Source: Pararoseomonas sp. SCSIO 73927
GTDB lineage: Bacteria > Pseudomonadota > Alphaproteobacteria > Acetobacterales > Acetobacteraceae
Assembly: GCF_037040815.1 (NCBI RefSeq)
Contig: NZ_CP146232.1
Coordinates: 310,001 to 374,000 of the forward strand
Direction of reading: 5' to 3'
Length of the DNA: 64,000 nt
Shown piece after piece: positions 27,074 to 57,963 of this stretch (position 1 is the stretch's first letter; each line of letters begins with the position of its first letter). Both the position numbers and the translations under genes were made by a program. The notes under the pieces are model-generated. The model did not search any database. It was given only the letters and a program-made list of their open reading frames with translations, and was not told the origin of the DNA.

Positions 27074-30000
27074 ATGAAGCTCGTCAGTGTTTCTTACGAG
27101 AATGCCGGACAGGACAGGCTGAAGGCCGGCGTCGCCACCTTCGGACAGGTCTTCGCCAAAGGCGAAGTGCCGGCCGGCACGGGGCTGTTCGCGACGATGA
27201 ACGGCTCGAGGTCCGCGGTTCAGCTCGACGTCAAGACGACCTACGAGGACGGCTCGGTGAAGATGGCCGTGCTCTCGGCCCTCCGCCCCGAGCTGCAGGC
27301 CGGGGCGAGTGCCGAGGCCGTGCTCCACACCAGCTCCGCCGGCGGGGCCGGGGCGCCGATCGACCTGTCCTCCGCGCTGGCGGGCCACAGCTTCTCCGTG
27401 GCGCTCACGCCCTCCGGCGGCGCGGCGCAGAGCATCGACGTGCTGGCCGCGCTGCGCACCGCGCTGGCCGATGGCAGCGCCTCCTTCTGGCAGAGCGGCC
27501 CGCTGGCGACCCAGGCCCGGGTGGAGATCCCGCTGGAGGGGTCCCAACGCCTGGTCTTCGACGTGACGGCGTATCAGGGCGGCGGCTTCTCCGTCGATGC
27601 GGGGTTCAACAATGACGGCGCCATGGGCGCCGCCGGCGGGCGCGTATCCTACGGCGTGAGCGTGACGATGGACGGCCGGACCGTCGCGCAGGAGCAGGTG
27701 AACCAGGGCCAGTACCAGAACTGGCACCGCAGCTTCTCCTCCAACGGCACCGATGGCGGCCAGGGCCTCGGCGATCCGTCGGAGGGCTGGCTCAACATCC
27801 GCCACGACATCGGGCACCTCGGCGAGACGGGCGCGGTCGCCGAGTACAACCTCGCCAACGGCGTGGATTCCGCGCTGCTCGACGCCTACGCCGCCGCCGC
27901 CCAGGCGCCGGAGGTCGACGCCCCTCTCGCGACGGCCGGCGTGACCCAGTACATGCCGGGCACTGGCGGCCGCGGCGACATCGGCTTCACCACGGCGGGC
28001 AACACCGCCTGGCTCATCTCGCAGGACATGCGCGCGGCGAGCTTCGCCATGGAGCAGGCCGAGGCGGCGGCGGCCGTGCCCTGGAACCTGTGGGACGCCG
28101 CCAACAAGGGCTGGCTCAGCGTCAGGGACTATCCCAACCTCTGGACGGATTCGCGCGGCGGCACCGGGCGGCCGGGCGACCCGACCTCCGGCACCCTGAC
28201 CCAGCCGGGCGACGCGGAGACCGGCTGGACGCTGGATCCCGCGCACCAGCCCGACCTGTCCTACGTGCCCTACCTACTGACGGGCGAGCGCTGGATGCTC
28301 GACAACCTCCAGGCCCAGGCAGCCTGGAACATCGCCGGCCAGTGGCCGCTGGTGCGCGAGAACGGCGAGGGGCTGGTGGTGCAGGAGAACCAGGTCCGCG
28401 GCGCGGCCTGGGCGCTGCGCCAGATCGACAAGGCGGCCCTGGCGAGCCCCGACGGGAGCGAGGCGAAGGCCTACTTCACCGAGGTGTCGAAGGCGAACTG
28501 GTCCTGGATCGTCGAGCAGATCCCTGCCTGGACCGCCGAGCAGGGCGAGGCCCATGGCTACCTGCCCGGTGTCTACGGCGCCGAGGGCGCCCTGCCGCCG
28601 TGGCAGCAGGACTACTTCGCCTCCACCGCGATCGCCGCGGCCCGGCAGGGCAACGCCGACGCGCGGACCTACCTGGAGTGGGCCTCCAACTTCCTGATCG
28701 GGCGCTTCACCCACGAGGCGCAGGGCTTCCCCGAGCATGACGGCGCCGCCTACCTCATCGCCATCGGCGATCCGGTGACGGGCACGCCCTACAAGACCTG
28801 GGCGGAGATCGGCGCGCGCACGGCGGCCAACAACTGGTCCAACGGCGACGGCTGGACGCAGAGCCAGGGCGACTACCCGCAGCTCGCCCTCGCCACCCTG
28901 GCCGGCCTGGCGGACGTGCTGGGATCCGCGGAGGCGGCGAAGGCTTACCGGGCACTGGTGGCGGACAACCCGCCCTTCACGGGCGCCACCGACTTCCGGC
29001 GCGACCCCACCTACTCGCTGGAGGCGCCGGGGAGCGACGAGACGACGATCCCGCCCGTGGTGCCGCAGCCGGCGGATCCGGCCACGCCTGCCGACCCAGC
29101 ACCCACGGAACCGGCACCCACGGAACCGGCACCCACGGAACCGGCACCCACGGAGCCGGCGCCACCTGCTGGTCCGGCCCCCACGGAGCCGGTGCCTCCC
29201 GCTGATCCGGCAGATCCCGCCAATCCGGCGCCGCCTGCCGATCCGGCACCGCCTGCCGATCCCGCGCCCCTGCCCCCGCCCCCGCCCGAAGAGGCGACAG
29301 GGGAGCTTCCTCTCTCGATCGTCCTGGGCGGGGAGAGCTGGAAGGGGAACCCCTTCGCGAGGGTCGTCCTGGACGGGGATTTGGTGTTCAGCGGCGAGGT
29401 CTCCGCGCCCCACGCCTCGGGCGGGATCGCGATCGCGCTCGGCACCGTGGATGCGGCGCGCGCGCACACGGTCCTGGTGGACTTCTCCAACGACCTCTGG
29501 GGCGGCTCGGCCGACACGGATCGCAACCTGCACGTCGAGGACATCCGGCTCGGCGGCGTCTCGACCGGGCAGAGCGGTGCGCTGAACCAGAACGGCCAAC
29601 TGACCTTCGAGGTCTCCGGCCATGGCCTGGGCGGAGCCCCCGGCCAGAACCCTGGCGGGGATGGCGGGACGGCTCCGCCCCCTGACAGCGCCGACCCGCT
29701 GGACAGCATCCGGATCGGCATCTCCGGGGACACCTGGCGCGGCCATGCGCGTTACGACGTGCTGCTCGACGGCAGGAAGGTGATCACGGGCCGGGAAGCG
29801 ACGGCGGAGCACGGCGCCGGGGCGAGCGAGACGGTCGAGATCGACGCCGATCTCTCCGCCGGCGGGCACGTGCTGACGGTCCGTTTCCGCAACGACGGCT
29901 GGGGCGGCACGGCGGCGACGGATCGCAACCTCTACGTGGACTCGGTGGTGGTGAACGGCGTGGACCTCGGGGAGCAGGCCGCGCTCAAGCAGAAGGGGGA

Positions 30001-30121: not shown

Positions 30122-30146
30122 CGCTTCCTCGGTTCCGGGGTGAAAG

Positions 30147-30235: not shown

Positions 30236-30289
30236 GCCCGGCCCTATCCGATCGGAGCCGAGGAGGGCCGGGGCTGGCGGCGCCCGGCC

Positions 30290-34457: not shown

Positions 34458-35966
34458 TCAGGGCTCGCGGGAGAGTTCCGCCGCCCGTGCCGCAAGGCCG
34501 CCGCCCTGCCCTTCCAGCACCTGCCGGAGCAGTGTGCGATCGCGCAGGCGCGACGCCGTGTCCCTCGGGCCTCGACCCTGGTCCCGCACCGTGACCACCG
34601 CCAGCACCGGCCTGCTCCCGCCGCCCAGGCTGTTCCAGCCCTGCTCCGCCCGGCTGCGGAAGCCGCCGCCCGCGGGCACGCCGTGAAGCCAGGCGGCCAC
34701 GGCCACCAGGCGTGTGCCGTCCGGCGACTGCCGCCCGCGCCAGGTCGCGTCACCGGCCCGGACGGAGAAGGTCAGCGCCTCGTCGTCCTCGCCGGCCACC
34801 CGGTTGCCCTCGGCCGTGACGGCCGACCAGGTGACGCGGGGCGAGAAGACCAGGAGCCGGGCGGAGAGGACGAGGCCCTGGCAGGCCAGCTCGCCCGAGG
34901 GCAGCCCGGAGCAGCCCTCGGGCGCGGTCAGCGCTGCGGGCACCGCGACCGGCCGCCCCCCCTCCTCCGGCCCCAGCCCGGCCACGAGGGCCGGCGCCGC
35001 ACCGGCGACGGCCAGCTGCAGGGCGGCCACGCCGAGGAGGATGGCGGCGCGCGGGGGGCCGGCGGTCTCGCCCGTCCGGATCCGTTGCGGGGCCGGCTCC
35101 GGCCGCGCCGTGTCCTGCCGGAAGGGCAGGCCCAGGAGCACGAGCGCGAGGAGGACGGCGCTGAAGAACACCCAGCCGTAGATCAGGTGGTCCGCCGCCG
35201 CCGCCTCCGCGCTGCCGAGGTGATGGCCGAGCACCACGATGCCGAGCGCCCGGAGCCCGTTCGCCAGGATCGGCACGACGATCGCCAGGACGAGCACGAG
35301 GAGCCGCCGGCCAGGGCTGCGGAACATCACCAGAGCATAGAGCGCGCCGAAGGCGAGGGACGCGATGGCGAAGCGCAGCCCGGCGCAGGCCTCGGCGACG
35401 AGGAAGGTGCCGGAGGGGATCTCGATGATCAGGTCGTCGGCGTAGTGCGTGATGCCGAGGAGCTGCAGCCCCGCCACGATCATCCAGGCCGTCACCCGCT
35501 GCAGGGCGGGCACGGCGAAGGCGCCGAAGGGCACGAGGAAGACGAGGTAGGCGAGCGGGGCCGCCATCGCCAGCCCGATGCGCCATCCCAGCACGGAGAG
35601 CGCCGCCAGCACCGCCAGGGCGAGGGCGGCGAGCTGGCGCCCCTCCATGATCCCCAGCCGCTCCGCCGCCAGCCAGGCCAGGGCGGCGCCGAGGGCGGGG
35701 ATCGCGAAGAGGGCCGTCGGCTCCGGGACCAGGCCGGCGAGGCGGGCGCGGCGCTGCCAGGCGAGCCAGGCAGCGATGGGGAGGACGAGCCAGCAGTGGT
35801 TGTAGGCGGTGGAGCGGTCCCAGGTCTCGACCGCCGTCGCCGCCTCCGTCGCGAAGAGGACGCCGAGCGCGGCGAAGGAGGCCAGAAGCACGAGAAGGGC
35901 CGGCCCCCACCCCTGCGGGAGGGCGCCGGCCAGCGCGCCGGGCGGCGCCGTGCGGGTCGTGCTCAT
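34458..35966 (-). CDS. xrtA: Exosortase A fused to EpsI-like domain
   Basis: A 502-residue integral membrane protein. The N-terminal 300 residues carry about eight hydrophobic segments and the exosortase catalytic trio: Cys194 in EACAGLRF, Arg239 in NGLRALG and His260 in ADHLIYGW. Exosortases cleave and transfer PEP-CTERM proteins to the cell surface. The C-terminal 180 residues (about 320-502) are an EpsI-like extracytoplasmic domain fused to the enzyme, as in many XrtA proteins. It is the last gene of the leftward operon; its ATG at 35966 overlaps the glycosyltransferase stop by 4 bases. No PEP-CTERM substrate is recognised in the window. Confidence 0.93.
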   Translation of the reverse strand: MSTTRTAPPGALAGALPQGWGPALLVLLASFAALGVLFATEAATAVETWDRSTAYNHCWLVLPIAAWLAWQRRARLAGLVPEPTALFAIPALGAALAWLAAERLGIMEGRQLAALALAVLAALSVLGWRIGLAMAAPLAYLVFLVPFGAFAVPALQRVTAWMIVAGLQLLGITHYADDLIIEIPSGTFLVAEACAGLRFAIASLAFGALYALVMFRSPGRRLLVLVLAIVVPILANGLRALGIVVLGHHLGSAEAAAADHLIYGWVFFSAVLLALVLLGLPFRQDTARPEPAPQRIRTGETAGPPRAAILLGVAALQLAVAGAAPALVAGLGPEEGGRPVAVPAALTAPEGCSGLPSGELACQGLVLSARLLVFSPRVTWSAVTAEGNRVAGEDDEALTFSVRAGDATWRGRQSPDGTRLVAVAAWLHGVPAGGGFRSRAEQGWNSLGGGSRPVLAVVTVRDQGRGPRDTASRLRDRTLLRQVLEGQGGGLAARAAELSREP

Positions 35967-37222
35967 TCGGCGGCCTGCATTTCGTAGGAGGGCGGCTGCG
36001 GCGACAGCAGCGCGTCCAGCCGCCGCAGGGTGGCCGACCAATCGTGCCCACGGGCGACCGCGGCGCGGGCGGCAGCGCCCATGCCAGGGATCTGGCCGCC
36101 CAGGGCGACGGCGATGGCGGCCGCCGTGGCGGAAGCACCATCGGCGACGAGGATGTCCCGGCCGGCAGCGGCGCGCACGCCCTCGAAGGCCTGGGGAGAG
36201 GCGATGACGGGGCGGGCCAGGGCCATGGCCTCCAGCACCTTGTTCTGGATGCCGCGCGCGATGCGCAGCGGCGCGACCGCCGCGGCGGCGTGGGCGATGT
36301 AGGGGCGGGTGTCCGGCACCGCGCCCGTGACGTGCACGCCCGGCAGCGCGGCCAGCGCGCGCACCGCCGGGGCGGGATTGGCGCCGACGACGTGGAACTC
36401 CGGTGCGGAGCCTGCCGCAGGGCCTGGGGCGGCGCGCAGCAGCGGCATCACCTCCGCCGCGAACCAGCACACCGCCTCCACGTTCGGGCGGTAGTCCATG
36501 GTGCCGGTGAAGACGATCGGCGGCGCCGCGTCGCGATAGGGGTTGGCGTAGGGCAGCGCGGGGTCGAAGCGCGACAGGTCCACGCCGTTATCCACCCAGT
36601 CCAGCCGCCCCGCGCTCTCGGGCGCGAGGGCGGCGAAGTGGTCCCGCTCCTCGCGCGAGACGAGGAGCGTGCGGTCGAAGACGGCCGCCGCGCGGCGCTC
36701 GAAGCTGAGGAGGGTGCGGGCCTCGCGCGCCCAGACCTGGCGCATCGGCGGCGCGGCGCCCTCCGCGTAGGCGGCCCACTTGGCGGAATCGACGTCCACC
36801 AGGTCCAGCACGCGCCGCAGCGGCGGAAGGCCGGGGCCCATGACGTAGGGCGCCATGGAGGAGGAGTAGACGAAGGCCGCCTCGTAGCGCCGGGCCGCGA
36901 GCCCAGCCTCCACCCAGGCGTGCAGGGCCGGCGCGTGGAACCAGCCGAGGGTGAGCGGCAGCCCCGGGCGCACCCGCGTCAGCGCGCGGGCCGCGGCGGC
37001 GGCGCGCCCGCCGGTCGGGTGGCACTCCACCCTGTCGCACACCCCGCGCAGCGCCGGCAGGTGCTTCAGGTCGGCCGGATCGTCCACGAGGCAGCCGAGA
37101 TCCACGGTCCAGCTTCGCGACAGGTGCTCCAGCATGTGCCAGGCGCGGATCTTGTCGCCCTTGTCCGGCGGGTAGGGGATGCGGTGGCAGAGGAAGAGGA
37201 GGCGCGGGCGCATCGCGGTCAT
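35963..37222 (-). CDS. XrtA-associated glycosyltransferase (TIGR03087-like)
   Basis: A 419-residue GT-B type glycosyltransferase with the distinctive start LLFLCHRIPYPPDKGDKIRA, and the GT4-type end with the RIARGIQNKVLEAMALARPVI segment that includes the E-x7-E type nucleotide-sugar site. This subfamily is known only from exosortase A exopolysaccharide loci; it adds a sugar to the growing lipid-linked repeat unit in the cytoplasm. The donor is not known. Its ATG at 37222 overlaps the FemAB gene stop (ATGA). Confidence 0.9.
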   Translation of the reverse strand: MTAMRPRLLFLCHRIPYPPDKGDKIRAWHMLEHLSRSWTVDLGCLVDDPADLKHLPALRGVCDRVECHPTGGRAAAAARALTRVRPGLPLTLGWFHAPALHAWVEAGLAARRYEAAFVYSSSMAPYVMGPGLPPLRRVLDLVDVDSAKWAAYAEGAAPPMRQVWAREARTLLSFERRAAAVFDRTLLVSREERDHFAALAPESAGRLDWVDNGVDLSRFDPALPYANPYRDAAPPIVFTGTMDYRPNVEAVCWFAAEVMPLLRAAPGPAAGSAPEFHVVGANPAPAVRALAALPGVHVTGAVPDTRPYIAHAAAAVAPLRIARGIQNKVLEAMALARPVIASPQAFEGVRAAAGRDILVADGASATAAAIAVALGGQIPGMGAAARAAVARGHDWSATLRRLDALLSPQPPSYEMQAAE

Positions 37223-38253
37223 CCCAGCCCCCGCACGATGGGCGGCCCCAGCAGGTTCGCCACCGGCAGGGGCAGGCGGCGCCAGGCGGCAATCATCAGC
37301 CTGTAGCGCGGGTTGGTCGGGTTGTTGTCCGGCAGGCGCGCGCCCTCCCGCAGCCGGTAGCAGTAGTGCAGCGGCTGCGGCGCGAAGCCCCAGTTCTTCT
37401 TGAAGTCGAAGGCGCCCGTGCCGGACTTGCTGCGGCCGAAGTCAAAGACGCGCGCGCCGCGCTCTGCCCCCGCGCGCCGCATCACCTCCCAGTACATCAC
37501 GTCGTTGGCGGCCAGGGCGCGCGCGGCGCGCGTGCCGCCGCCGTAGTAGGGCAGCACCTCGTCGCGGAAGTGGAAGCTCAGCACGGAGGCCACGGGGCGG
37601 TCCTCGTGCAGCACCGTCAGCACGTCCGACATGCCGGGGAAGGCAGTGCCGAGCAGCCGGAAGTAGTGGCGGGAGAAGACGGGGCTGCCGAGGTTCCGCA
37701 CGCTCTCGGCGTAAACGCGGTGCAGCATGTTCGTGTCGCCGTTCACCACCGTGGCCAGGCCATTCCCCAGCCCCTTGCGCACCACGGCGCGCTGCTTGCG
37801 CGGGATGGCCTTCATGTCGGCCTCCGCGTCACCCGTGATGGGCTTGCGGAAGGTGTAGTAGAGCGGCGGCCGCTCCTGCCAGCCGAGGTCGGGCGCGCCG
37901 AGGCGGCGGAACTCCAGGCAGGGCACGCCGGTGCGGCGCATCAGGTCGTGCGCGTGATCCTCCAGCGCCGCCGCGGCCTCCGGCGTGGAGGAGACGGGGC
38001 CGCCATAGACGCAGAAGGGCGTGGAGACGAGCGCGTCGCCGAAGAGACGCGTGCGGATGCGCGCCAGCGGCAGCACGCCGACCACGGCGCCGTCCTGCTC
38101 GGCATAGGCGTAGTGCGTGGCGTGGCCGAAGGCCTCCGCGATCACGCGCCGCCAGGCGGCGAGGTGGAAGAAGGTGGCGTCCGGCGTGGCCTGGACGAAG
38201 CGGTCCCAGGCGCCGCTGGCGGCGTCCTCGAGCGGGCGGATGCGAACGGCCAT
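37219..38253 (-). CDS. FemAB-family XrtA-associated protein (GNAT-like transferase)
   Basis: A 344-residue protein of the FemAB/peptidoglycan bridge aminoacyltransferase-like superfamily, in the XrtA-associated subfamily (start RPLEDAASGAWDRFVQATPD, GNAT-like segments FRDEVLPYYGGGTRAARAL and FDFGRSKSGTGAFDFKKNWG). In these loci it probably transfers an acyl or amino-acid group to the exopolysaccharide; the actual reaction is not established. It sits 10 bases from the deacetylase gene and overlaps the next glycosyltransferase by 4 bases. Confidence 0.9.
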   Translation of the reverse strand: MAVRIRPLEDAASGAWDRFVQATPDATFFHLAAWRRVIAEAFGHATHYAYAEQDGAVVGVLPLARIRTRLFGDALVSTPFCVYGGPVSSTPEAAAALEDHAHDLMRRTGVPCLEFRRLGAPDLGWQERPPLYYTFRKPITGDAEADMKAIPRKQRAVVRKGLGNGLATVVNGDTNMLHRVYAESVRNLGSPVFSRHYFRLLGTAFPGMSDVLTVLHEDRPVASVLSFHFRDEVLPYYGGGTRAARALAANDVMYWEVMRRAGAERGARVFDFGRSKSGTGAFDFKKNWGFAPQPLHYCYRLREGARLPDNNPTNPRYRLMIAAWRRLPLPVANLLGPPIVRGLG

Positions 38254-38263
38254 GATGCCCTCC

Positions 38264-39115
38264 CTAAGCCGTGCCGATTTCGGCGGCGTGGACGCGATCG
38301 ATCCGGTCCCAGGCGAAGTCCCGCAGCAGCCGGTCCACCCGCGGCGCCATGGAGGAGAGCCGGCTGTAGTGGCGGAAACGCGAGAGCGGCGGGGCGCTGA
38401 GGACCCGGGGCTGGCCCGGATCCACCTCCCAGGGGTGGAAGTAGAAGATGCCCGGGCGCCGCTCCGCCGCGTTCACCCGCCGCAGCCCGGCGCGGAACAC
38501 AGGATATGGCAGCAAGCGGAACCAGCCGCCGCCTGCGCAGGGCAGGTTGCGGCCCAGGGCGCGCAGGGTGGTCATCGGCAGTTCCACCACGCCGTCCGGA
38601 AAGGGCCGGTGCGGCCCGCGCGGCGCGTCCGGCGCGCCGTAGAGGTCGTGGCGCACGGGGAACACGGAGGAGCTGTAGCGGTGCCCCTCCTCCGCCAGGA
38701 TGCGGTGCGCCCAGGGCGTGCTGGCGGGGCCGATGGAGAAAGTGGGCGCGCGATAGCCGGTCACGGCCGTGCCCCCCGCGTCCTCCAGCACCTGACGGGC
38801 GCGGCGGATGTCGGCGCGAAAGGCCTCCGCGCCGATCTCGTACACCCGCTCATGGCCGAAGCCGTGGCTCGCCAGCTCGTGCCCGGCGGCGACGATGCGG
38901 CGGATCAGCGCGGGCTGGCGCTCCGCCACCCATCCCAGGGTGAAGAAGGTCGCGCGCACTCCGGCGCGGGCGAAGCGGTCCAGCACGCGGTCCGTGCTGT
39001 CGACGACGCGGGGCGCCAGCGCGTCCCACTCGCTCCGCGGGATCACCCCGGCGAAGGCCTGGACCTGGAACCAGTCCTCCACGTCCACGCTCATGGCGTT
39101 GGTGAGAGAGAGCAT
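38264..39115 (-). CDS. XrtA-associated polysaccharide deacetylase (DUF3473)
   Basis: A 283-residue NodB-fold carbohydrate deacetylase with the subfamily start NAMSVDVEDWFQVQAF (first catalytic Asp pair), the SHGFGHERVYEIG segment with the metal-binding His-x3-4-His pattern (about 85-90), and the C-terminal DUF3473 end (FYFHPWEVDPGQPRV). It would remove N-acetyl groups from the exopolysaccharide, in the periplasm or before export. ATG 39115 overlaps the ATPase stop (TGATG); a GTG one codon earlier is possible. Confidence 0.92.
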   Translation of the reverse strand: MLSLTNAMSVDVEDWFQVQAFAGVIPRSEWDALAPRVVDSTDRVLDRFARAGVRATFFTLGWVAERQPALIRRIVAAGHELASHGFGHERVYEIGAEAFRADIRRARQVLEDAGGTAVTGYRAPTFSIGPASTPWAHRILAEEGHRYSSSVFPVRHDLYGAPDAPRGPHRPFPDGVVELPMTTLRALGRNLPCAGGGWFRLLPYPVFRAGLRRVNAAERRPGIFYFHPWEVDPGQPRVLSAPPLSRFRHYSRLSSMAPRVDRLLRDFAWDRIDRVHAAEIGTA

Positions 39116-40080
39116 CACCGGCGCGCCCGGCCGCCATCGACGAACAGCTCGGACATCCGGTCGAAGATCCGCTCGCGCCGAGCCATCAGGCGCTCCAGCG
39201 TCTCGATCCGGTCGGCCAGGCGGTCCAGCCTGTCGGCGCTGCCGGAGGCGCCATCGTGGCCGCCGTGCTCCGGCGCGCCGCCGCTGAGGTCGTCCTCCAG
39301 CTCCAGCGCCGTCGCCTCCACCATCGGGCCGGTCAGCTCGTCCGTTCCCTCCAGCGCGCCGGCGAGAAGCACGCGGGAGCAGAGGCGGTTGATCCGGCGG
39401 GGGATGCCGCCGCTGTAGCGGTGCACCAGGTCCAGCGCCGGCTCCTCCCAGCTCGGGCAGCCATCCCAGCCGACCGCGCGCAAGCGGTGCTCCACATAGG
39501 CGTGCGTCTCCTCCCGAGAGAGGCCGCCGAGGTGGTAGGAGGCGAGGACGCGCTGGCGGAGCTGGTCGAGGTCGGGGCTGGCGAGCATGCGGCGCAGCTG
39601 CGGCTGGCCCAGCAGCACCGTCTGCAGGGGGTGGCCGCCATCCGTGACGTTGGAGAGCATCCGCAGCTCCTCCAGCGCCTGCAGCGGCAGGCCCTGCGCC
39701 TCGTCCACGATCAGCAGGTGGCGCCTGGTCGCGTCACGCAGGGTGGCGGCGATCCCGAGCAGCACCCGCGCCTTGCTGCCGTCGGACGGCGCGCCGAAGG
39801 CGTCGGCGACGAGCCGCACCACGTCGTCGCCCGAGACCTGGGTGGTGGCGATGCGCGCGACGGCGAAGCCCTCCGGGTCCAGCGTGGCGCAGAGCCGCTC
39901 GACGAGGGTGGTCTTGCCCGCGCCGACCTCCCCGGTGACGACGACGAAGCCCTCCCGCTGCGCCAGCCCGTAGGTGAGGTGGGCGTAGGCGCGGCTGTGA
40001 ACGGAGCTGGCGAAGAAGAGCCGCGCGTCCGGCGTCATCTGGAAAGGCTGTTCGCGGAAGCCGTAGCGGTTGATGTGCAT
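39115..40080 (-). CDS. XrtA-associated AAA ATPase (ExeA-like)
   Basis: A 321-residue ATPase with Walker A GEVGAGKTT (50-58), Walker B LLIVDEAQ near 120, and the N-terminal YGFREQPFQMTPDARLFF typical of XrtA-locus ATPases. The last 70 residues are a low-complexity, charged helical tail (about 270-321) likely forming a coiled coil. Such proteins are thought to power assembly or regulate the envelope machinery; the specific role in these loci is not proven. It follows the outer-membrane gene in the operon direction by 23 bases. Confidence 0.9.
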   Translation of the reverse strand: MHINRYGFREQPFQMTPDARLFFASSVHSRAYAHLTYGLAQREGFVVVTGEVGAGKTTLVERLCATLDPEGFAVARIATTQVSGDDVVRLVADAFGAPSDGSKARVLLGIAATLRDATRRHLLIVDEAQGLPLQALEELRMLSNVTDGGHPLQTVLLGQPQLRRMLASPDLDQLRQRVLASYHLGGLSREETHAYVEHRLRAVGWDGCPSWEEPALDLVHRYSGGIPRRINRLCSRVLLAGALEGTDELTGPMVEATALELEDDLSGGAPEHGGHDGASGSADRLDRLADRIETLERLMARRERIFDRMSELFVDGGRARR

Positions 40081-40103
40081 TGCGTGTCCCTCGGAAGGGC
40101 CCC

Positions 40104-41879
40104 TCAGAAGGTTTGGCGCAGGCCGACGAGCACAACGTTCTGCAGCGCCCGCCCGGAGGCGTCCTCGTCGCCGCGGCTCGTGATCGCGTACTGCGCGAAG
40201 GCGCTGAGGCCGGGCCGCAGCTGGGTCGCCAGCGTGACGCTGGCGCTGACCACGTCGCCGTTGCCGGCGCCCGGGGAGGTGAACCGGCCGTACTGGACGT
40301 TGCCGATGGCGGTGGTCGCGGGCGTCAGCTCGTGCGACCAGGAGAGGCTGGCGGAGGTGCCGCGCTGGGAGAAGGCGGTGGTCCCGGCCTGCACCGAGAC
40401 GGGCTGGCGCTCCTCGTGCGAGACGGTGAGCGTGATCCGGTCCCGCGGCCAGGACTGGCTGACGGAGAGGGCGGCGCGGCGGATGCGGAACAGGCTGCTC
40501 TGCACGCCGAGGAGGGAGTCCGAGAAGGGCTGCGCGGTGGGGGCGCCGGTCGCCGAATCCACGGGGTTGCCGTACTCGTCCAGCGTGGTGGTGGAGAGGA
40601 GGTCCACCGCGCGCTGCGCGCCCGTCGTCAGCCGCTCCGAGTAGTTGGCGAAGAGCTGCGTGCGGACGCCGAGCCCGATCACCGCGTCCACCGTTGCGGA
40701 GTTGAAGCCGTCGCGCCGGCCGTACTTCACGGTGATCCAGCTCTCGGGCGAGAAGTTCACGCGCCCGCCGAAGGCCCAGACCGGCTCGCTGATGTGGATG
40801 CCGGGGACGCCTCCGTAGCGCTGCCCCTCGTATCCACCTTCCACGAGCGCGAGGATGGAGTGGGTGATGGCGTAGCGCGCCTGCACGGAGGCGATCCGCT
40901 TGTAGGCGCCGTCCAACACGCCCGTGCCGTCGTAGCTGGTGGAGGCCAGGCGGGTCTCGAAGGCCAGCCGGCCGAAGTTCTCGCCCGTGCGGCCCACCGC
41001 GTAGAACTCGTGCGCGGTGAAGTCCTGGTCGGCGAAGTAGCGCTGGCCGCCCGGCGTAAAGGCGCCGCCGGAGGAACCGCCGCCGAAGCCGCTGCCGCCG
41101 AGGTCCTGCTGCACCGCCTGGAAGGCGTAGCCGACCTGCACGGTCCCCAGCCCGCCGAAGCGCTGCACGAAGTAGGGAGAGACCTGGACGGTGTTCGTCT
41201 GGACCCGGTTGTTGCGCCCCACCACGGCGTTGCCCTGCCCGGCGTAGCCGCCGCTCGCGGCCTGGGTCGCGCCCGATCCGCGCAGGTCCAGGAAGACCTG
41301 GTCCGGCACCACCGTGATCAGCGCCTGCCCGTTGAAGCGCTGGTCCACGCGGTTCCGCTCGCCCTCCGCGGTGTGGAACTGGATGCTCGGCGCGTAGTTG
41401 ATGAGGCCGCGGATCCGGTCCGTGTCCACGGAGAGGAGAAGGCCGGGGATGATGCTGGTGACGAAGTCGTCCCGCTTGTCCCTGCGGCTCTGGTCGAGGT
41501 TGTCGGTGTAGAGGAACTGCACGCCGAGGCTGGGCGTGACGGCCCAGCCGCGCCCGGGCTCGCCGGGCGGGGGCGCGACGGCGCCGTAGGGAAAGTCCGG
41601 CGCGTCCAGGCGGACCCGGCCGGTATCCGCCGCCGGTGGCAGGACGAAGGGGCCGGAGGAGACGAGGCCGGCGCCAGCATCCGGCACCCCCGTGCCTGAT
41701 GACAACGACGGCGACTGCGACGGCGCCGCGGGGCGCAGCTCCAGGGCGCTCAGGGAAGGCTCGGCCAGCGCCGGAGAGGCGAAGAGCGGGACGCCAAGGG
41801 CGAGGAGGGCGCCGGCGGCGTGCCGGCGACGGGCGGGGAGTCGCCCCTCCGCCTCAAACCCGACCGCCTCACCCGGCAT
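40104..41879 (-). CDS. XrtA-associated outer-membrane beta-barrel protein (TIGR03016-like)
   Basis: A protein of about 591 residues with a signal peptide (ARRRHAAGALLALGVPLF, then SPALA), a low-complexity linker and many alternating aromatic beta-strands (for example VQVGYAFQAVQQDLGG and WITVKYGRRDGFNS) ending in a terminal VLVGLRQTF, where a C-terminal Phe marks outer-membrane barrel insertion. It probably forms the export channel or a surface anchor for the exopolysaccharide. ATG 41879 is preferred; a GTG at 41888 would add 3 residues. It overlaps the kinase-like gene by 11 bases. Confidence 0.88.
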   Translation of the reverse strand: MPGEAVGFEAEGRLPARRRHAAGALLALGVPLFASPALAEPSLSALELRPAAPSQSPSLSSGTGVPDAGAGLVSSGPFVLPPAADTGRVRLDAPDFPYGAVAPPPGEPGRGWAVTPSLGVQFLYTDNLDQSRRDKRDDFVTSIIPGLLLSVDTDRIRGLINYAPSIQFHTAEGERNRVDQRFNGQALITVVPDQVFLDLRGSGATQAASGGYAGQGNAVVGRNNRVQTNTVQVSPYFVQRFGGLGTVQVGYAFQAVQQDLGGSGFGGGSSGGAFTPGGQRYFADQDFTAHEFYAVGRTGENFGRLAFETRLASTSYDGTGVLDGAYKRIASVQARYAITHSILALVEGGYEGQRYGGVPGIHISEPVWAFGGRVNFSPESWITVKYGRRDGFNSATVDAVIGLGVRTQLFANYSERLTTGAQRAVDLLSTTTLDEYGNPVDSATGAPTAQPFSDSLLGVQSSLFRIRRAALSVSQSWPRDRITLTVSHEERQPVSVQAGTTAFSQRGTSASLSWSHELTPATTAIGNVQYGRFTSPGAGNGDVVSASVTLATQLRPGLSAFAQYAITSRGDEDASGRALQNVVLVGLRQTF

Positions 41880-42858
41880 CGGGCGCACCGTAGTCGCCGT
41901 GGGCGCCGAAGGTGTCGTTGGCGGAGAAGCGGGCGCGATTCAGCAGGAGCTGCAGCACCGGGCAGGCCTCCAGCATGTCCAGCGCGGCCTCCACCTCGTT
42001 GCGCTGCGTCCGCTCCGCGTCCACCACCAGCACCACCTGGCCCGCGATGGAGGCGAGGGTGCTCGCCTCGCTCGTCGAGAGGCTGGGCGGCGTGTCCAGC
42101 ACGATGACGTGCTGCGGCAGGGCGGCGGCCAGGCGGAGGATGGCGGAGGCCATCGCGGCGCCCGGGGGCGGATCCCGCCGCCCCCCCGCCGCGTCGCCCT
42201 CAACGGAGCCCCCGTAGGGAAGGAAGGTCAGGCGCGGGATCGCCGTGCGCAGTGGCAGGCCGTTCGGGCGGAGCGAAGGATCGGAGGCGAGCTGGCGCAG
42301 GCCGGGCCGCCCGGCGACGCCGAGCGCGCCGCCGCACCCGCCCTCGCGCCCGTCCACGTCCACCAGCACCACGCCGGCCGCGCCCCCGGCCGCCGCGGCG
42401 GCAAGGTTCAGCGCGGCGAAGGTCTTGCCCTCGCCGGGCAGCGCGCTGGTCACCACCACGATGCGGCCCTGGGAGGTGCCGGCGCGCGGCCCCTCCTGCA
42501 CGGTCCGCAGCATCTGGTGCTGGACGACCGCGATCTCCTCGACCACGCGGCTGCGCGCCGGGCCGTCCCCGCCGACGACGAGGCCGGCCGCCCGGAGCGC
42601 CTCCAGCCCGATCGGGGCCGGCGGCGCGGCGGTGCCGGTCGTTGAGCCATCCTTCGCAGGAGCCTTTCCAAGCGCCTTTCCAACGACCTGGTCAGGAGCC
42701 TGGACGGGGGCATCCTGCGCGGAGGCCGGCGCCGCGGGCGCGGGTGCCGGGGCGGCCTCGGGGCGCACGGGGCGCCAGTCCTGCGGCCCGCCGGGCTCGC
42801 CGAGCAGCTCCGCTGCGCGCTCGATCAGGTGGGTGCGCGCGGTGACAGCGGGGCTCAT
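41869..42858 (-). CDS. XrtA-associated tyrosine-kinase-like ATPase (CpsD/Wzc-C type)
   Basis: A 329-residue P-loop protein of the BY-kinase type with Walker A SALPGEGKT (138-146), Walker A' VVLVDVDG and Walker B VIVLDTPP. In these loci it pairs with the chain-length determinant encoded just upstream. Only one tyrosine (Y323, in HGDYGAPDAG) is visible near the C-terminus, instead of the usual tyrosine cluster, so tyrosine-cluster autophosphorylation may be reduced here. The first 85 residues are a Pro/Ala-rich linker. Its ATG at 42858 overlaps the chain-length gene by 4 bases. Confidence 0.88.
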   Translation of the reverse strand: MSPAVTARTHLIERAAELLGEPGGPQDWRPVRPEAAPAPAPAAPASAQDAPVQAPDQVVGKALGKAPAKDGSTTGTAAPPAPIGLEALRAAGLVVGGDGPARSRVVEEIAVVQHQMLRTVQEGPRAGTSQGRIVVVTSALPGEGKTFAALNLAAAAAGGAAGVVLVDVDGREGGCGGALGVAGRPGLRQLASDPSLRPNGLPLRTAIPRLTFLPYGGSVEGDAAGGRRDPPPGAAMASAILRLAAALPQHVIVLDTPPSLSTSEASTLASIAGQVVLVVDAERTQRNEVEAALDMLEACPVLQLLLNRARFSANDTFGAHGDYGAPDAG

Positions 42859-44375
42859 GCCAGCATCCTCATGACCTGACCCGGCACGCCGCCGAGGATT
42901 GCGCCGAAGCCCGCCAGCAGCAGGGCGAAGACCCCGGCGAAGGCGAAGGCGGGAAGAAGGCGGCGCGGCGCCGCAGGGGCGGAGAGCGCGCCGAGGACGG
43001 GCAGGCCGAGGCCGCGCAGGTCGTGGACCGTGTAGAAGGTGCGGTCCAGCCGGGTGAGGCCCACGGCCACCAGCAGCCCCGCCCCCAGCCCGGCCACCAG
43101 CACCCCGGCCGCGAGGAGCAGGCGGTTGGGCGCCACGGGCGCGGCCGGCAGGGTGGGCGGATCCACCACCTCCAGCCGCACGCGGTCGGAGTTCGTGCGG
43201 GCGGCGCCGGCGATCTGGATCGATTCGCGCCGCGCCAGCAGTTCCTCGTAGTTCTTGCGCAGCACGGTGTAGTCGCGGTCGAGGTTCAGGTACTGCGCCT
43301 GCACCTCCGGCTCGCTGCGGGCCACCGCGTCCAGCCGCTCCACCTCCGCTCGGCCGGCCTTCTCCTGCCGCTCGAGCGAGGCGATCTGCGCGTGCACGTC
43401 CACCAGCCGCACGCGGAGCTGCTCCATGAGCGGGTTGGAGCGGGCGACGCGCTGCGGGGCGGCCGCCGCGCGCGGCGCGCCGCCGCCACCGCCGTTCGCG
43501 CGCAGGTCCGCGATGGCGCGCCGCGCCGACAGAACGTCCGGGTGCTGGTCGGTGTAGCGCAGGCGAAGCTCGCGCAGGTTGCGCTCGGCCTCCGCCACGC
43601 GCCCGTCGCCGCCCCCTCCCCCGCCGCCGCCCGTCTCCGTGACGAGCTGGGCGGGCGTGGCGTCGATCTGCTGCTGCGTTAGGTCGCGCCGCGTGCGGGC
43701 GTCCTGCAGCTCGCCCTGCACCTGCTGCAGCCGGGCCCGCGCCGCCTCCAGCCGGGAGACGCCGCCATTGGCGTCGGACGGCAGCAGGTCGATGTAGCGC
43801 GCCTGGAACTCGGCCTTGCGCCGCTCGGCCTGGCGGAGCTGCAGCTCGTAGGAGGCGATCTGCTGCGCCACGAAGGTCCGCGCGCTCTCCATCTGCTGCC
43901 GGTCGGTCGTCGTCGCGGCCTCCATGAAGAGGTTCAGCGTGGTCTGCACCACGTCGCGCGCCGCGCGGGCGTTGCTGTCGCGGTAGTCGATGGTGAAGAG
44001 GTTGCGGGTCTGCGTGGTGATGCGGATGTCCTTCGCCAGCCGCTGGATCAGCGCGTCGCGGGAGGCGGTGTCGGGCGCCCGCGCGTCGAGGCCCGTGCGG
44101 ACGATCACCTTCTCCAGGTTCGGGCGGCTCAGCAGCGTGCGCTGCAGCACCTCCACCTGCCCGGCCGGCGTGCCGTCGATCGCGATTCCGCGCAGCAGCA
44201 TGCCGAGGATGGCGTCGGCGTCGGCGTAGAGCCGCGCGCTGGATTCATACTGGCTGGGCAGGGTGTGGATCCCGGCCCAGCCGCCGAGGCAGACGAGCCA
44301 GGCGACGCCCATGGCGACCCATCGGTGCCGCCAGCCGGCGCTGGCGTGGCGGCGGAGGAAGGCTGTGGCCTGCAC
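42855..44375 (-). CDS. XrtA-associated polysaccharide chain-length determinant (Wzz/GNVR-type)
   Basis: A 506-residue co-polymerase with two hydrophobic segments, one near residue 20-40 (VAMGVAWLVCLGGWAGI) and one near 430-450 (LLLAAGVLVAGLGAGLL), and a long periplasmic coiled coil between them that includes a Gly-rich insertion near 245. It sets exopolysaccharide length together with the polymerase and kinase-like partner. Starts at GTG 44375, 3 bases after the export gene. A short extra hydrophobic end closes the protein. Confidence 0.9.
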   Translation of the reverse strand: MQATAFLRRHASAGWRHRWVAMGVAWLVCLGGWAGIHTLPSQYESSARLYADADAILGMLLRGIAIDGTPAGQVEVLQRTLLSRPNLEKVIVRTGLDARAPDTASRDALIQRLAKDIRITTQTRNLFTIDYRDSNARAARDVVQTTLNLFMEAATTTDRQQMESARTFVAQQIASYELQLRQAERRKAEFQARYIDLLPSDANGGVSRLEAARARLQQVQGELQDARTRRDLTQQQIDATPAQLVTETGGGGGGGGDGRVAEAERNLRELRLRYTDQHPDVLSARRAIADLRANGGGGGAPRAAAAPQRVARSNPLMEQLRVRLVDVHAQIASLERQEKAGRAEVERLDAVARSEPEVQAQYLNLDRDYTVLRKNYEELLARRESIQIAGAARTNSDRVRLEVVDPPTLPAAPVAPNRLLLAAGVLVAGLGAGLLVAVGLTRLDRTFYTVHDLRGLGLPVLGALSAPAAPRRLLPAFAFAGVFALLLAGFGAILGGVPGQVMRMLA

Positions 44376-44378
44376 GGC

Positions 44379-45017
44379 TCAGAACCAGCCCTGCGGGATG
44401 ACGAGCGTGTCGCCCGGTCGCATCGCCGCGTCCTGGGAGACGTCGCCGTCCCGCAGCAGGTCCGAGAGACGGACGGGGATGGCCCTGGGGCGGCCGCCGG
44501 GCTCGCGCCGGATGATCTCGGCGCGGTTGCCGGCCGCGTAGCGGGTCAGCCCCCGCGCGCCGATCATGACGTCGAGCACGGTCATGCCCTCGCGGTAGGG
44601 CATCGCCATGGGCTGCGCGGCCTCCCCGATCACGCGGATCTGGCGGTCGGACGGGCCCAGGAAGGAGCGGACCATCACCGTCACCGTCGGCTCGCGGACG
44701 TAGGTCTTCAGCCTCTCCTCGATCTGCTTGCCCAGTTCCGAGGGCGTCCGCCCCGCCGCCTCGATGTCCGGGATCAGCGGCAGGGAGAGGCGGCCGTCCG
44801 GCCGGATCGGCAGATCGGGCGCGCTCAGCTCCGGCGAGCGGTAGACGAAGATCGAGAGCGTGTCCCCCGGGCCGAGCACGTACTCGGGCGCGGGTTCCGA
44901 CGAGGCGGGGGCGAGGTCGCGCGGGGCGCCCGCCCCCCCGGCACAGCCGGCCAGGCCCAGCCCGGCCAGGCCCATTCCGGCCATCAGCAGGAAAGGGGAA
45001 TATCCGATGCGGGGCAT
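44379..45017 (-). CDS. XrtA-associated polysaccharide export lipoprotein (Wza-like)
   Basis: A 212-residue outer-membrane auxiliary lipoprotein. The lipobox LAGC places the modified Cys at residue 25 after a hydrophobic signal, followed by the Poly_export domain (LGPGDTLSIFVYRSPELS) and a SLBB-like segment (QIRVIGEAAQPMAMPYREG). It contributes to the exopolysaccharide exit channel. The ATG at 45017 has AGGAG 6 bases upstream; an ORF extension to 45053 lacks one. It is first in the leftward operon, divergent from the TIGR03013-like glycosyltransferase across an AT-rich gap. Confidence 0.92.
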   Translation of the reverse strand: MPRIGYSPFLLMAGMGLAGLGLAGCAGGAGAPRDLAPASSEPAPEYVLGPGDTLSIFVYRSPELSAPDLPIRPDGRLSLPLIPDIEAAGRTPSELGKQIEERLKTYVREPTVTVMVRSFLGPSDRQIRVIGEAAQPMAMPYREGMTVLDVMIGARGLTRYAAGNRAEIIRREPGGRPRAIPVRLSDLLRDGDVSQDAAMRPGDTLVIPQGWF

Positions 45018-45340
45018 GGGGGCTCCTGCTGTCGTTCCGCTGCGGTGCGGCACGGATCCGGTTTCCGGGGCGGATTACGTCCCGGTCCCGGCTGTAAGGA
45101 CGTTATCATCGCCCAACCCGCCTTCAATAAGTTTTTTACAACATCGAAATTGATCAGAACGAAAACCTGCCCGGAATTGTAAATTTCTCTGCCGAATTGC
45201 TGAATTTCATGAAATAAATCCAGTGTTTTTAATGGTTTGTCGATCACCGATCAAAGTAGATGGATGTTATAAAATCTTCCTGCCTGTGGTCACCGATGGT
45301 AAATCCTGCCTCCGGAAACCCCCAATCCGGGAGCGGCCTG
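45018..45340. promoter_or_regulatory. AT-rich divergent promoter region of the XrtA locus
   Basis: This 323-base gap between two long operons is markedly AT-rich from about 45100 to 45290. It contains TTTACA at 45135-45140 and the inverse TGTAAA at 45178-45183. Similar TGTAAA hexamers occur in the AT-rich gaps at 26978 and 62330-62366. It presumably holds the back-to-back promoters for the export and glycosyltransferase operons. No clear -24/-12 sigma-54 element could be picked out by eye. Confidence 0.4.
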
Positions 45341-54477: not shown

Positions 54478-54501
54478 CCCGGCCAATGGAGGAGCGCGCG
54501 C

Positions 54502-54810: not shown

Positions 54811-55870
54811 GGCGCGGAGCACGGTGCTGGCGCCGGTGCCGTGGTTCCCCTTCCGCGGGCGGAAAGGCCCGGCGGAGGCGGAGCGGCACGGGTTGCGGGT
54901 GCATCATCCCCGCTTCCTCGCCCCGCCCGGGCTGGGGATGCTGACGGCGCCCACCAGCCTCTACCTCGCGGCCCGGTCGGCGCTGGCGCGCATGATGGAG
55001 AGCGGCTTCGACTTCGACCTGCTGGACGCCCACTACCTTTACCCCGATGGCGTGGCGGCGGTCTGGCTCGGGCAGGAACTCGGCAAGCCCGTGGTCATCA
55101 CGGCGCGCGGCTCCGATGTCAGCCAGCTGCCGGGCTACCGCCTGCCCCGCCAGGCGATCCTGCGGGCCATCCGCGGCGCGGACGCGCTGATCGCGGTGAG
55201 CGCGGGGCTGCGGGACGGGCTGCTGGCGCTGGGTGCGCCGCCGGAGAAGGTGACGGTGCTGCGCAACGGCGTGGACCTGAACACCTTCGTGCCCCCCGTC
55301 TCGCGCCCGGCCGCGCGCGCGGCGCTCGGGCTGGGCGAAGGGCCCGTGCTGGTCTCGGTCGGCCACCTCATCGAGCGCAAGGGACACCACCACGTCATCG
55401 CGGCCCTGCCGATGCTGCCGGGGCACCGCCTGCTGATCCTCGGCGAGGGGCCGGAGCGCGGGGCGCTGGTCGCCCTCGCCCGGCGGCTGGGGGTGGAGGA
55501 CCGGGTGCGGCTCGTCGGTGCCCAGCCCCATGCGAGCCTGCCCGGATGGTACGGCGCCGCGGACGCGATGGTGCTCGCCTCCAGCCGGGAGGGCTGGGCG
55601 AACGTGCTGCTGGAATCCATGGCCTGCGGCACGCCCGTCGTGGCCAGCCCGGCCTGGGGCAGCCGCGAGGCGGTGCGGAGCCCCGCCGCGGGGCTGGTGA
55701 TGGAGAGGACGACGCCGGAGGCCGTGGCGGCCGGGGTGCGTCGCCTGCTGGCCAGTCCACCGGAACGGGCCGCCACCCGCGCCTATGCCGAGGGCTTCGG
55801 CTGGGAGGAGACGAGCGCCGGCCAGATGGCGGTGTTCCGGCGCGTCCTGGCCGCGAGGGCGGGGGCGTGA
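54647..55870 (+). CDS. XrtA-locus glycosyltransferase family 4 protein
   Basis: A 407-residue GT-B glycosyltransferase. The N-domain starts LRLLTFSTLYPSPGRPNHG, and the C-domain contains RNGVDLNTF, LVSVGHLIERKGHHHVI and EGWANVLLESMACGTPVV, the donor-binding E-x7-E type loop. It would add a sugar to the repeat unit in the cytoplasm. The GTG at 54647 has a GGGAGAGG ribosome site and gives the expected N-terminus; the frame is open further upstream but those residues are not glycosyltransferase-like. Its stop overlaps the next ATG (TGATG). Confidence 0.9.
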   Translation: MSAAQDISTLPARPAPRAESPLRLLTFSTLYPSPGRPNHGVFVENRLLHLVGGGEARSTVLAPVPWFPFRGRKGPAEAERHGLRVHHPRFLAPPGLGMLTAPTSLYLAARSALARMMESGFDFDLLDAHYLYPDGVAAVWLGQELGKPVVITARGSDVSQLPGYRLPRQAILRAIRGADALIAVSAGLRDGLLALGAPPEKVTVLRNGVDLNTFVPPVSRPAARAALGLGEGPVLVSVGHLIERKGHHHVIAALPMLPGHRLLILGEGPERGALVALARRLGVEDRVRLVGAQPHASLPGWYGAADAMVLASSREGWANVLLESMACGTPVVASPAWGSREAVRSPAAGLVMERTTPEAVAAGVRRLLASPPERAATRAYAEGFGWEETSAGQMAVFRRVLAARAGA

Positions 55871-57963
55871 TGCGCCGCCGGGACCTCCTCGCCGCCACCG
55901 CGGCCCTCGCCCTCCCCGGCGGGGCGCTGGCGCAGGTGCGCGCCGCGGCGCCGCCCTGCCCTTCCGCACCCGGCGACATCGTCGGGCTGGTGCTTGAGGG
56001 GATGGGCGGGGGCGTCGGCAGCGTCGCCGTCTTCGGCCAGGCCTTCCGGCCGGGCGACGTGCCGGGCCGCGCCGGGCTGCGCGCCAGGCTGCCGGACGGG
56101 CGAACCCTGCCGGCGCAGATCGACGTGAAGACCCGCCACCCCGACGGCTCCGCCCGGTGGGCGGTGATCGCCCTCTCCTGCCCCGCCCTGCCGCGCGGCG
56201 GCCGGCAGGGGGTGGTGCTCTCCGCGGGGGAGGCGCCGGGGCCGGCGCTGGACGTGCCGGCGGCGCTGTCCGGGCGGCAGGCCCTCGTCACGCTGCGCGG
56301 CTCCGGCGAGGCGGAGTGGCGGATGGACCTGCTGGCTGCGTTCCGCGCCGCGCTGGGAGAGGCGCCCTGGCAGGCCGGCCCGCTGGCCGTGGCGACGCGG
56401 GTCTCGGCCGCCGTGCCCCCGGCCTCGGCGGGGGGCGTCGCCTCCCTCCGGCTCGTCGCGGACGTGGCGCTGCGGGCGGACGGCTCGCTCTGGGTGGAAG
56501 CCTGGTTCCGCAACGACGTGGCGATGCGCCCGAACGGCGGCGAGGCCGCCTACGCCGTCCAGCTCCTCCTGGACGGGCGCACGGCGCTGGAGACGACGAT
56601 CCCGAAGCAGGCCCAGTACACGGGCTGGGGGCGGCTGCTGGGTTCGGTGCGCTCCGGCACGCCGCCCCTGGTGCGGCACGACGCCGCCTACCTGGCCGAT
56701 GCGGCGGCCGTTGCGCGCTACGACCTCGCGACCGGGGTGGAGGAGGCGCTGCTGGCGCGGCTGGGCGCGGCGATGGCCGCGCCCGCCTGGGCGGCACCCC
56801 TCTCCGCCCGGGGGATCACGCAGGACATGGGGCAGACCGGTGGGCGCGCGGATATCGGCCCCGCCACCATGCCGCAGGCCGTCTGGCTCATCACCGGCGA
56901 TCCCCGCGCGGCCGCCTACTGCCAGGGGCAGGCCGAGGCGGCGGGCTCTATTCCCTGGCACTACTGGGACCCCTCCGGCGGCACCGGGGGCAGCACCGGG
57001 GGCGGCGGCTGGATCGACACGCGCCGCTGGCCCCGGCTGTGGAGCGACGGGCGGGGCGGCCCCGCGCCGGGCGGGCTGATGCAGCCCGTGGCGGGGGATA
57101 CGGGCTGGCGGGCCGATTGCGCGCACCAGCCGGACCTGAACTTCGTGCCCTGCCTGCTGACCGGGCGGCGCGCCCTGCTGGACAACCTGCAGGCCCAGGC
57201 CTCCTGGTGCGTCGTCTCGCAATGGCCCTCGCCCTCGGCGCGCGGGGCGCCGGGCGCCGCAGGGCCCGGCGAGGGCGTGAACGTGGTGCGCGGCAACCAG
57301 GTGCGCGGCGGCGCCTGGTCCCTGCGCCAGCTGGAGAACGCGGCCTGGATCAGCCCGGACGACGACTCCAACCGCCCCTGGCTGCGCGCCGCCGCCGCCG
57401 GGAACTGGGCCTGGATCCGCGCCCAGATCCCGGCCTGGACGGCGGCCCAGGGCGAGGCGCATGGCTGGATCCCCGGCGAGTACGGCGCGGCCGGCGTGCT
57501 GCCGCCCTGGCAGCAGGACTACTTCGCCTCCACCGCCGCCATCGCCGCGCGCCGGGGCGACGAGGCGGCGCGCGCGGTGCTGACGTGGATGGCGAACTTC
57601 CTCGTCGGCCGCTTCGGGGCGGCGGATCGCGGCTTCGGGCGGAACGACGGCGCGGCCTACCTCATCGCGCATCTCTCCCCCGGCGGGCAGCCCCTGGGAA
57701 GCTGGGCGGCGATGGGGGAGGCGACGCGGGCCAGGGGCCTCTCCAACGGCACGGGATGGGGCCGGAGCGAGGGCGACTACGCCCAGCTCGCCCTGGCCTC
57801 CCTCGCGGCCGTCTCCGAGACGCTCGGCTCGGCTGCGGCGGCGCAGGCCTACACCTGGCTGGCGGGCGCGGGGGCGCCCTTCACCCGGGCGCAGGATTTC
57901 GCGCGCGACCCGGCCTTCCACATCGTCCCGCGCGGGCGCGGCGGCGCCCGCTGCGCGTCCTGA
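55870..57963 (+). CDS. Secreted paralogue of the 27-kb protein (unrecognised family)
   Basis: A 697-residue protein beginning with a Tat-like signal (MRRRDLLAATAALALPGGAL, then AQV) and then the core shared with the 27074 protein: IDVKTRHPDGSARWAVIAL, AHQPDLNFVPCLLTGRRALL, NQVRGGAWSLRQ and PPWQQDYFASTAA. It lacks the linker and the two carbohydrate-binding-like domains. The twin-arginine-type start and genomic place (cotranslated with glycosyltransferases in the XrtA operon) suggest a periplasmic protein acting on the exopolysaccharide. The helical, tryptophan-rich core could be an alpha/alpha-toroid lyase or hydrolase; no family is recognised. Confidence 0.8.
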   Translation: MRRRDLLAATAALALPGGALAQVRAAAPPCPSAPGDIVGLVLEGMGGGVGSVAVFGQAFRPGDVPGRAGLRARLPDGRTLPAQIDVKTRHPDGSARWAVIALSCPALPRGGRQGVVLSAGEAPGPALDVPAALSGRQALVTLRGSGEAEWRMDLLAAFRAALGEAPWQAGPLAVATRVSAAVPPASAGGVASLRLVADVALRADGSLWVEAWFRNDVAMRPNGGEAAYAVQLLLDGRTALETTIPKQAQYTGWGRLLGSVRSGTPPLVRHDAAYLADAAAVARYDLATGVEEALLARLGAAMAAPAWAAPLSARGITQDMGQTGGRADIGPATMPQAVWLITGDPRAAAYCQGQAEAAGSIPWHYWDPSGGTGGSTGGGGWIDTRRWPRLWSDGRGGPAPGGLMQPVAGDTGWRADCAHQPDLNFVPCLLTGRRALLDNLQAQASWCVVSQWPSPSARGAPGAAGPGEGVNVVRGNQVRGGAWSLRQLENAAWISPDDDSNRPWLRAAAAGNWAWIRAQIPAWTAAQGEAHGWIPGEYGAAGVLPPWQQDYFASTAAIAARRGDEAARAVLTWMANFLVGRFGAADRGFGRNDGAAYLIAHLSPGGQPLGSWAAMGEATRARGLSNGTGWGRSEGDYAQLALASLAAVSETLGSAAAAQAYTWLAGAGAPFTRAQDFARDPAFHIVPRGRGGARCAS

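Follow-up and report, generated by a model that had tools for sequence, protein, structure and literature searches.

Enzymes of exopolysaccharide loci that process the cell's own polymer are a known kind of protein. Sinorhizobium meliloti has two glycanases, ExoK and ExsH, that act on its succinoglycan, and ExsH leaves the cell through the type I system PrsDE (PMC1403797, PMC4916376). The promonan locus of Sphingomonas encodes a signal-bearing GH16 protein, PrmQ, which the authors predict to cut the polymer of the same cell, and the gene list in the accessible text of that paper contains an exosortase-associated amidotransferase (PMC11340318). Alginate is processed by AlgG in the periplasm and then outside by the modular, Ca2+-dependent AlgE1-7 of Azotobacter, with AlgL also described (PMC4432689). 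Floc formation has been linked to a PEP-CTERM gene of an XrtA-type system (PMC9850573), the main text of the 2006 paper defining the XrtA system, in its accessible part, contains neither "lyase" nor "glycosyl hydrolase" (PMC1569441), and in the open-licence literature we found no characterised enzyme that cuts the polymer of an XrtA locus, unless PrmQ with its predicted role is counted. Here we analyse two paralogous proteins, P0001 and P0002, that bracket the XrtA exopolysaccharide locus of Pararoseomonas sp. SCSIO 73927 in a stretch of 64,000 nucleotides (contig NZ_CP146232.1, positions 310,001 to 374,000; hereafter the window). We think it likely that they are two exported copies of one divergent PL26-like carbohydrate-active enzyme that acts on the XrtA-locus polysaccharide.

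The pair would resemble ExoK and ExsH as two enzymes that target the polymer of their own cell and of which one takes a type I route, but ExoK and ExsH have the GH16 fold rather than a toroid and their activity is proven. PrmQ, too, is exported and has its gene within an exopolysaccharide locus, but it belongs to GH16 and no type I form is described in the accessible text of the promonan paper. The alginate enzymes also process one polymer both in the periplasm and outside, but they are epimerases and a lyase of other folds. By fold, the comparison is with the PL26 exo-rhamnogalacturonan lyase PcRGLX (PDB 5XQ3/5XQG/5XQJ/5XQO), which shares the three-domain order and has a homologous N-terminal RIFT barrel; PL26 acts on pectin, whereas the core common to P0001 and P0002 is found at exopolysaccharide loci.

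P0001 and P0002 are a real, conserved and XrtA-linked pair. The reading given above is based on their paralogy, architecture, copy number, location, co-occurrence with XrtA and conserved polar residues, and from these we infer their catalysis, substrate and export routes. The two cores are 46% identical over 657 residues (BLASTP, E 2e-150), far beyond chance, and the three motifs that an earlier note on this DNA had listed as shared (AHQPDL, NQVRG and PPWQQDYFAST) are found in both. The genome (5.59 Mb, 99.3% complete) has exactly two copies of the core, and the closest relatives bear names of Roseomonas and other Acetobacteraceae. The earlier note had recognised no family for this core, which holds to the extent that no family exceeds its cut-off for the core in hmmscan and that neither of the libraries searched, Pfam and NCBIfam, names the core family, but the N-terminal domain proved to be homologous to the RIFT barrel of PcRGLX. 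The positions of the domains and of the locus between the two genes are given in Table 1.

Table 1. Positions in the window of the two paralogues, their domains and the XrtA locus.
Feature	Window positions	Strand	Basis
P0001: core, repeat linker and two CBM60 domains, 1015 residues	27074..30121	+	intact open reading frame
P0001 core homology region, residues 20-649	27131..29020	+	BLASTP to P0002; conserved residues
P0001 Pro-rich repeat-expanded linker	29099..29274	+	15-, 18-, 33- and 36-bp periods
P0001 first CBM60 domain	29312..29575	+	37 bits, over cut-off
P0001 second CBM60 domain	29708..29983	+	59.5 bits, over cut-off
Exosortase XrtA	34458..36470	-	PF09721, E 1.3e-56; TIGR03109, 281.6 bits, over cut-off
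FemAB-like protein, deacetylase, ATPase, outer-membrane protein, tyrosine autokinase, chain-length protein, export protein	37219..45053	-	profile models
Sugar transferase, PrsK, PrsR, PrsT, O-ligase, GT4; runs directly into P0002	45260..55870	+	profile models
P0002: Tat-like signal and the same core, nothing added, 697 residues	55870..57963	+	intact open reading frame
P0002 Tat-like signal (MRRRDLL...GGALAQ)	55870..55935	+	read by eye from sequence; twin Arg common in its set
P0002 N-terminal RIFT-barrel domain, residues 36-125, homologous to PL26 domain 1	55975..56244	+	sequence profiles
P0002 central beta-sandwich, residues 126-268	56245..56673	+	predicted secondary structure; boundary by eye; no sequence link to PL26
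P0002 helical toroid, residues 272-690	56683..57939	+	predicted; conserved H419, R479, R486, D393

Both proteins are predicted to fold as a RIFT barrel, a beta-sandwich and an alpha/alpha toroid, and the toroid for which the earlier note had proposed a structure prediction was indeed recovered in the model. The full-length model of P0002 has its three domains in the order seen in PL26, and PcRGLX is its best whole-length structural match. The sequences are linked through the first domain, where residues 36-125 of the core align domain-wise with the first domain of PcRGLX proteins fetched via PF19501 (hhalign, 96% probability, E 2.3e-9). PF19501 is a borderline match for P0001 and P0002, under the cut-off of 22.1 bits in hmmscan (19.6 and 20.6) but above it in the genome scan (23.8 and 22.2), and at E <= 1 it is seen in 28 of 48 relatives. 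The PL26 comparison profile consists of five proteins fetched via PF19501 and matches PcRGLX at E 2.7e-301, and a PF19501-fetched protein that was scanned has all three PcRGLX domains. The core differs from PcRGLX in that its sandwich and toroid reach hhalign probabilities of just 0.3% and 1.4% against the corresponding domains of these PL26 proteins, and neither of the Pfam families for these domains, PF21345 and PF21346, is matched in P0001, P0002 or the 48 relatives; since only the first domain can be linked by sequence, the core is not filed under PL26. It is a divergent relative of PL26, with a first domain shared by descent and a body plan shared by prediction.

A comparison of 76 sequences, 14 of them distant, shows conserved residues in the toroid. 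H419, R479 and R486 (P0002 numbering) are kept in all 76, D271, which sits just ahead of the toroid, and R326 in 75, D550 in 73, and D393 and D328 in 71. P0001 carries the common residue at all 23 listed conserved positions, including the invariant three, and many of the near-invariant polar and aromatic toroid residues are also present in a sequence from another class (L175). The pair is probably catalytic. Because a histidine and two arginines are fully kept and no carboxylate is, these residues make us lean weakly toward beta-elimination, with a polysaccharide lyase only slightly ahead of a hydrolase.

The two proteins differ in what is attached to the core. By eye, the N-terminus of P0002 (MRRRDLLAATAALALPGGALA) looks Tat-like when judged for a twin Arg, a hydrophobic stretch and an AxA-like site, and that of P0001 (MKLVSVSYENAG) has no visible signal, as the earlier note had said. 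The repeat-expanded linker and the two carbohydrate-binding-like domains that it had described in P0001 are also there: the linker contains a 15-bp unit in 4.1 copies with 97% matches (29099-29160), and both domains are CBM60 (PF16841; whole protein 88.7 bits, E 3.7e-25, cut-off 28.2, two stretches), the only CBM60 matches in a profile scan of the genome. CBM60 is a calcium-dependent module. P0001 ends in DDIWLG, which resembles the ends of several relatives.

The same division runs through the relatives of each protein, which were collected as sets of 120 for P0002 and 121 for P0001, that is, the queries with the best 119 of 206 and the best 120 of 191 matches, respectively. Within these best-listed matches, a twin Arg in the first 35 residues is found in 114/120 of the P0002 set (89 with RR and a hydrophobic stretch), none of which has CBM60 or RTX, and in 2/121 of the P0001 set, where CBM60 and/or RTX, called at two or more GGxGxD repeats, occur in 117 (CBM60 in 87, RTX in 65). 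This split may have been sharpened by the searches, because each restricted the length of the candidates. RTX repeats imply type I secretion, and the genome has a PrtD-type ABC gene over cut-off with an adjacent HlyD gene, not linked to P0001. In a tree of 82 rows, made by a quick method and with the labels of locus rows resting on the length behind the core, the signal and RTX forms of Roseomonas each make up a supported group (100 and 99), the two being sisters, and another clade has a second sister pair of this kind (L098, G062; 100). The form label requires five changes on this tree, four of them forced by starred branches, which suggests that the split into envelope and secreted forms arose more than once; if so, the site of cutting seems to be under selection.

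The association with XrtA was surveyed in 385 alphaproteobacterial genomes, in 150 genomes of the family and in 398 of the phylum, as plain counts uncorrected for kinship among the genomes. In the class sample, the core is present in 16 genomes, 12 of them at E <= 1e-100 (own genome included), and XrtA is over cut-off in 30/385, compared with 11 of the 12 strong-core genomes (Fisher p = 1e-12, likewise uncorrected for relatedness); XrtA is over cut-off in 14 of all 16 and below it in one more. Where both occur, they share a contig in 8 of 11 genomes, 5-34 kb apart, and are on different contigs in the other three. In the single strong-core genome lacking XrtA (G288), the core adjoins GT2, PIG-L deacetylase and DUF5935/Wzy_C ligase genes. 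In the family sample, 23 of the 25 genomes with the core (a hand count with CBM60-only rows dropped) also have XrtA, which is present in 53/150 overall, the two exceptions being G039 and G137. In the phylum sample, the core was matched only in the own genome and in G647, whose core protein (992 residues, E 4e-34 among the open reading frames searched) lies 22 kb from XrtA; a protein close to it is hit by two models for exosortase-A-associated hydrolases and exceeds the cut-off of one. The core family is thus associated, though not universally, with the XrtA exopolysaccharide system, a link that the earlier note had proposed to survey, and the survey found the opposite of a core residing mainly in genomes without exopolysaccharide loci. 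In one relative, a core near XrtA was matched as three separate pieces (G088:C1:5143485-5145556), resembling a decayed gene or a sequencing error.

The gene neighbourhoods of the named loci can be divided by the length behind the core into 46 loci of the signal form, 29 of the RTX form and 9 that are unclear, a few of these assignments being doubtful (e.g., the minus-strand entry of L045) and many stretches ending within 10 kb. At least one of 11 XrtA-locus genes is nearby in 29/46, 6/29 and 0/9 of these loci, respectively. The start codon of P0002 overlaps the last base of the GT4 gene, and a GT4 gene immediately precedes the signal form in 26 of the 41 loci with 1.5 kb or more of upstream sequence. 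P0001 is 4.3 kb past xrtA, with the type VI secretion cluster on its other side, and xrtA or HTH/GAF genes are nearby more often for the RTX form (12/29). In four of the five genomes in which both forms and XrtA could be placed on one contig, XrtA lies between the two forms (G000, G003, G005 and the L037/L060 contig, but not G021).

Taken with the predicted fold, these data would be explained if P0002, encoded right behind the ligase and GT4 genes, crossed the inner membrane by its Tat-like signal and trimmed or cleaned up chains in the periplasm as they are made, while P0001 left the cell by type I secretion, was anchored on a glycan through its two CBM60 domains, and cut or remodelled polymer there once it is finished, so as to set chain length or release matrix. 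The earlier note had instead pictured periplasmic processing versus binding outside, and this is not supported, because P0001 keeps all of the listed conserved residues and, in its relatives, the core is followed by RTX repeats and/or CBM60; it therefore appears to be a secreted enzyme equipped with a binding module, not a mere binder.

Several observations weigh against a PL26-like enzyme pair dedicated to the XrtA polysaccharide. XrtA occurs without the core in 30 of the 53 XrtA genomes of the family sample, so the core is an accessory part of the XrtA system. None of the 11 XrtA-locus genes is found within at most 10 kb in 17/46 signal-form, 23/29 RTX-form and all nine unclassed loci, in part because of contig ends. 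One genome (G062) has three core copies far from XrtA, including a pair for which two neighbours were scanned and neither was a glycan gene, and a core copy in Acidiphilium has none among the three neighbours scanned. As a control, XrtA is over cut-off in three of five genomes with a true PL26 gene, on another contig in two and 2.9 Mb away in one, and genome-level co-occurrence alone is therefore a weak test, with co-location telling more. As for export, P0001 itself has no GGxGxD repeat, the type I secretion genes lie ~4.2 Mb along the contig, and 44 of the 121 P0001-type proteins pass a crude hydrophobicity test in their first 55 residues, so the lack of an N-terminal signal in this form is not clean. 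Neither hmmscan nor profile comparisons connect the toroid to a known family by sequence and, modelled alone, it scores equally with GH88/GH105 hydrolases, epimerases and a lyase, and above PL26. Finally, no NDP-sugar dehydrogenase is present in the XrtA locus, the nearest over cut-off being ~0.5 Mb away, so the uronate that a lyase needs is not indicated.

The last two points are also those that make it possible, if somewhat doubtful, that the core is a glycoside hydrolase with a GH88/GH105-like toroid, using carboxylates for hydration or hydrolysis and acting on the same polysaccharide by the same two export routes. This differs from a PL26-like enzyme in chemistry only, and the odds of the two therefore overlap. 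The isolated toroid reaches 16.9 and 16.8 against unsaturated glucuronyl hydrolases, which we take to be GH88, and 16.4 with YteR, presumably GH105, and a hydrolase is placed close behind a lyase because such enzymes are among the matching toroids, D271 misses full conservation by one sequence, D393, D328 and D550 are nearly as well kept and the locus lacks a dehydrogenase. Full conservation is nevertheless confined to H419, R479 and R486 among these residues, PL26 is the best match over the whole length, GH88/GH105 Pfam families are not among the matches of P0001, P0002 or 48 members, and GH88/GH105 enzymes are not known to have a RIFT barrel and sandwich ahead of the toroid. The toroid also fits the fold of AGE and cellobiose 2-epimerases, and by analogy with periplasmic AlgG and extracellular AlgE of Azotobacter alginate the core might be a polymer-level epimerase or isomerase, which we regard as unlikely given that AlgG and AlgE are beta-helix proteins, that AGE-type enzymes are cytoplasmic and act on mono- and disaccharides, and that the whole-length match again favours PL26. 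That P0001 and P0002 are non-catalytic matrix binders or scaffolds on an enzyme-derived fold would suit the CBM60 domains of P0001 and the fact that no activity is known, but it is quite improbable, since purely structural use does not require the near-invariant polar and aromatic toroid residues and P0002 has no binding module. An effector role of P0001 for the neighbouring type VI secretion system rather than for XrtA is very improbable: the gene does follow TssB-TssG and a methyltransferase gene and lacks a visible signal, but relatives adjoin XrtA-locus genes (L066, L073, L075 and L085), the loci scanned have no match to three type VI queries and nearly all of the best-listed P0001 set carries RTX and/or CBM60.

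The XrtA locus that the pair was said to bracket is real, with the FemAB, deacetylase, outer-membrane, chain-length, export, PrsK, PrsR, PrsT and O-ligase models over cut-off in addition to XrtA itself, and the ATPase and tyrosine-kinase models below it. A generic -24/-12 sigma-54 consensus, as distinct from the published PrsR/sigma-54 motifs, matched 16 times against 17.4 expected. Between P0001 and xrtA are a 776-residue protein with a weak C-terminal GAF match (30290-32620, -) and a Cro-type HTH protein (33599-34174, +), and relatives of one or both recur near P0001-type genes (L058, L061, L066-L068, L070, L073, L089, L100 and L101); it is possible that they regulate the pair. A 120-residue open reading frame with no Pfam match lies between the methyltransferase gene and P0001 (26154-26516, +), and the type VI cluster contains tandem VipB/TssC sheath-like genes (17100-20172, +), both matching PF05943 and PF18945, the second with a clearly lower score. 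Just past the end of the window (L178:69-1625), Asn synthase/amidotransferase, GT4 and GNAT-type genes extend the glycan region downstream.

Proteins closer to PL26 also occur near XrtA. Four PF19501-bearing proteins of 831-1203 residues (L171-L174; genomes G870, G876, G545 and G597), which come from two families that belong to this phylum but not to the class, all have PcRGLX_1st over cut-off (profile E 2.9e-10 to PcRGLX). In three of the four genomes XrtA exceeds its cut-off on the contig that bears the gene, at distances of 0.7, 30 and 70 kb, with only below cut-off matches in G597. PrsT is over cut-off near one of them, and an amidotransferase is present in three of the stretches, with the XrtA-type model below cut-off. 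In contrast to the core they are nearer to PL26, and their toroids have no detectable homology to that of the core. XrtA-type loci may thus have taken up RIFT-barrel/toroid enzymes on more than one occasion.

It is quite conceivable, and we propose it tentatively, that the core represents a new carbohydrate-active enzyme family that cuts XrtA-locus exopolysaccharide and has repeatedly diverged into two forms, one of the envelope and one secreted by type I and anchored to glycan. P0001 and P0002 would then be a second, unrelated case of the ExoK/ExsH design. Many environmental Proteobacteria have exopolysaccharide loci of the XrtA type, and if the proposal is true, then, taken with the separate PL26-like proteins near XrtA outside the class, RIFT-barrel/toroid depolymerases would be a recurrent and overlooked part of the XrtA system and a handle on the chemistry of its polymers, with a dedicated enzyme pair serving as a direct tool by which the polymer could be digested and its structure read from the fragments.

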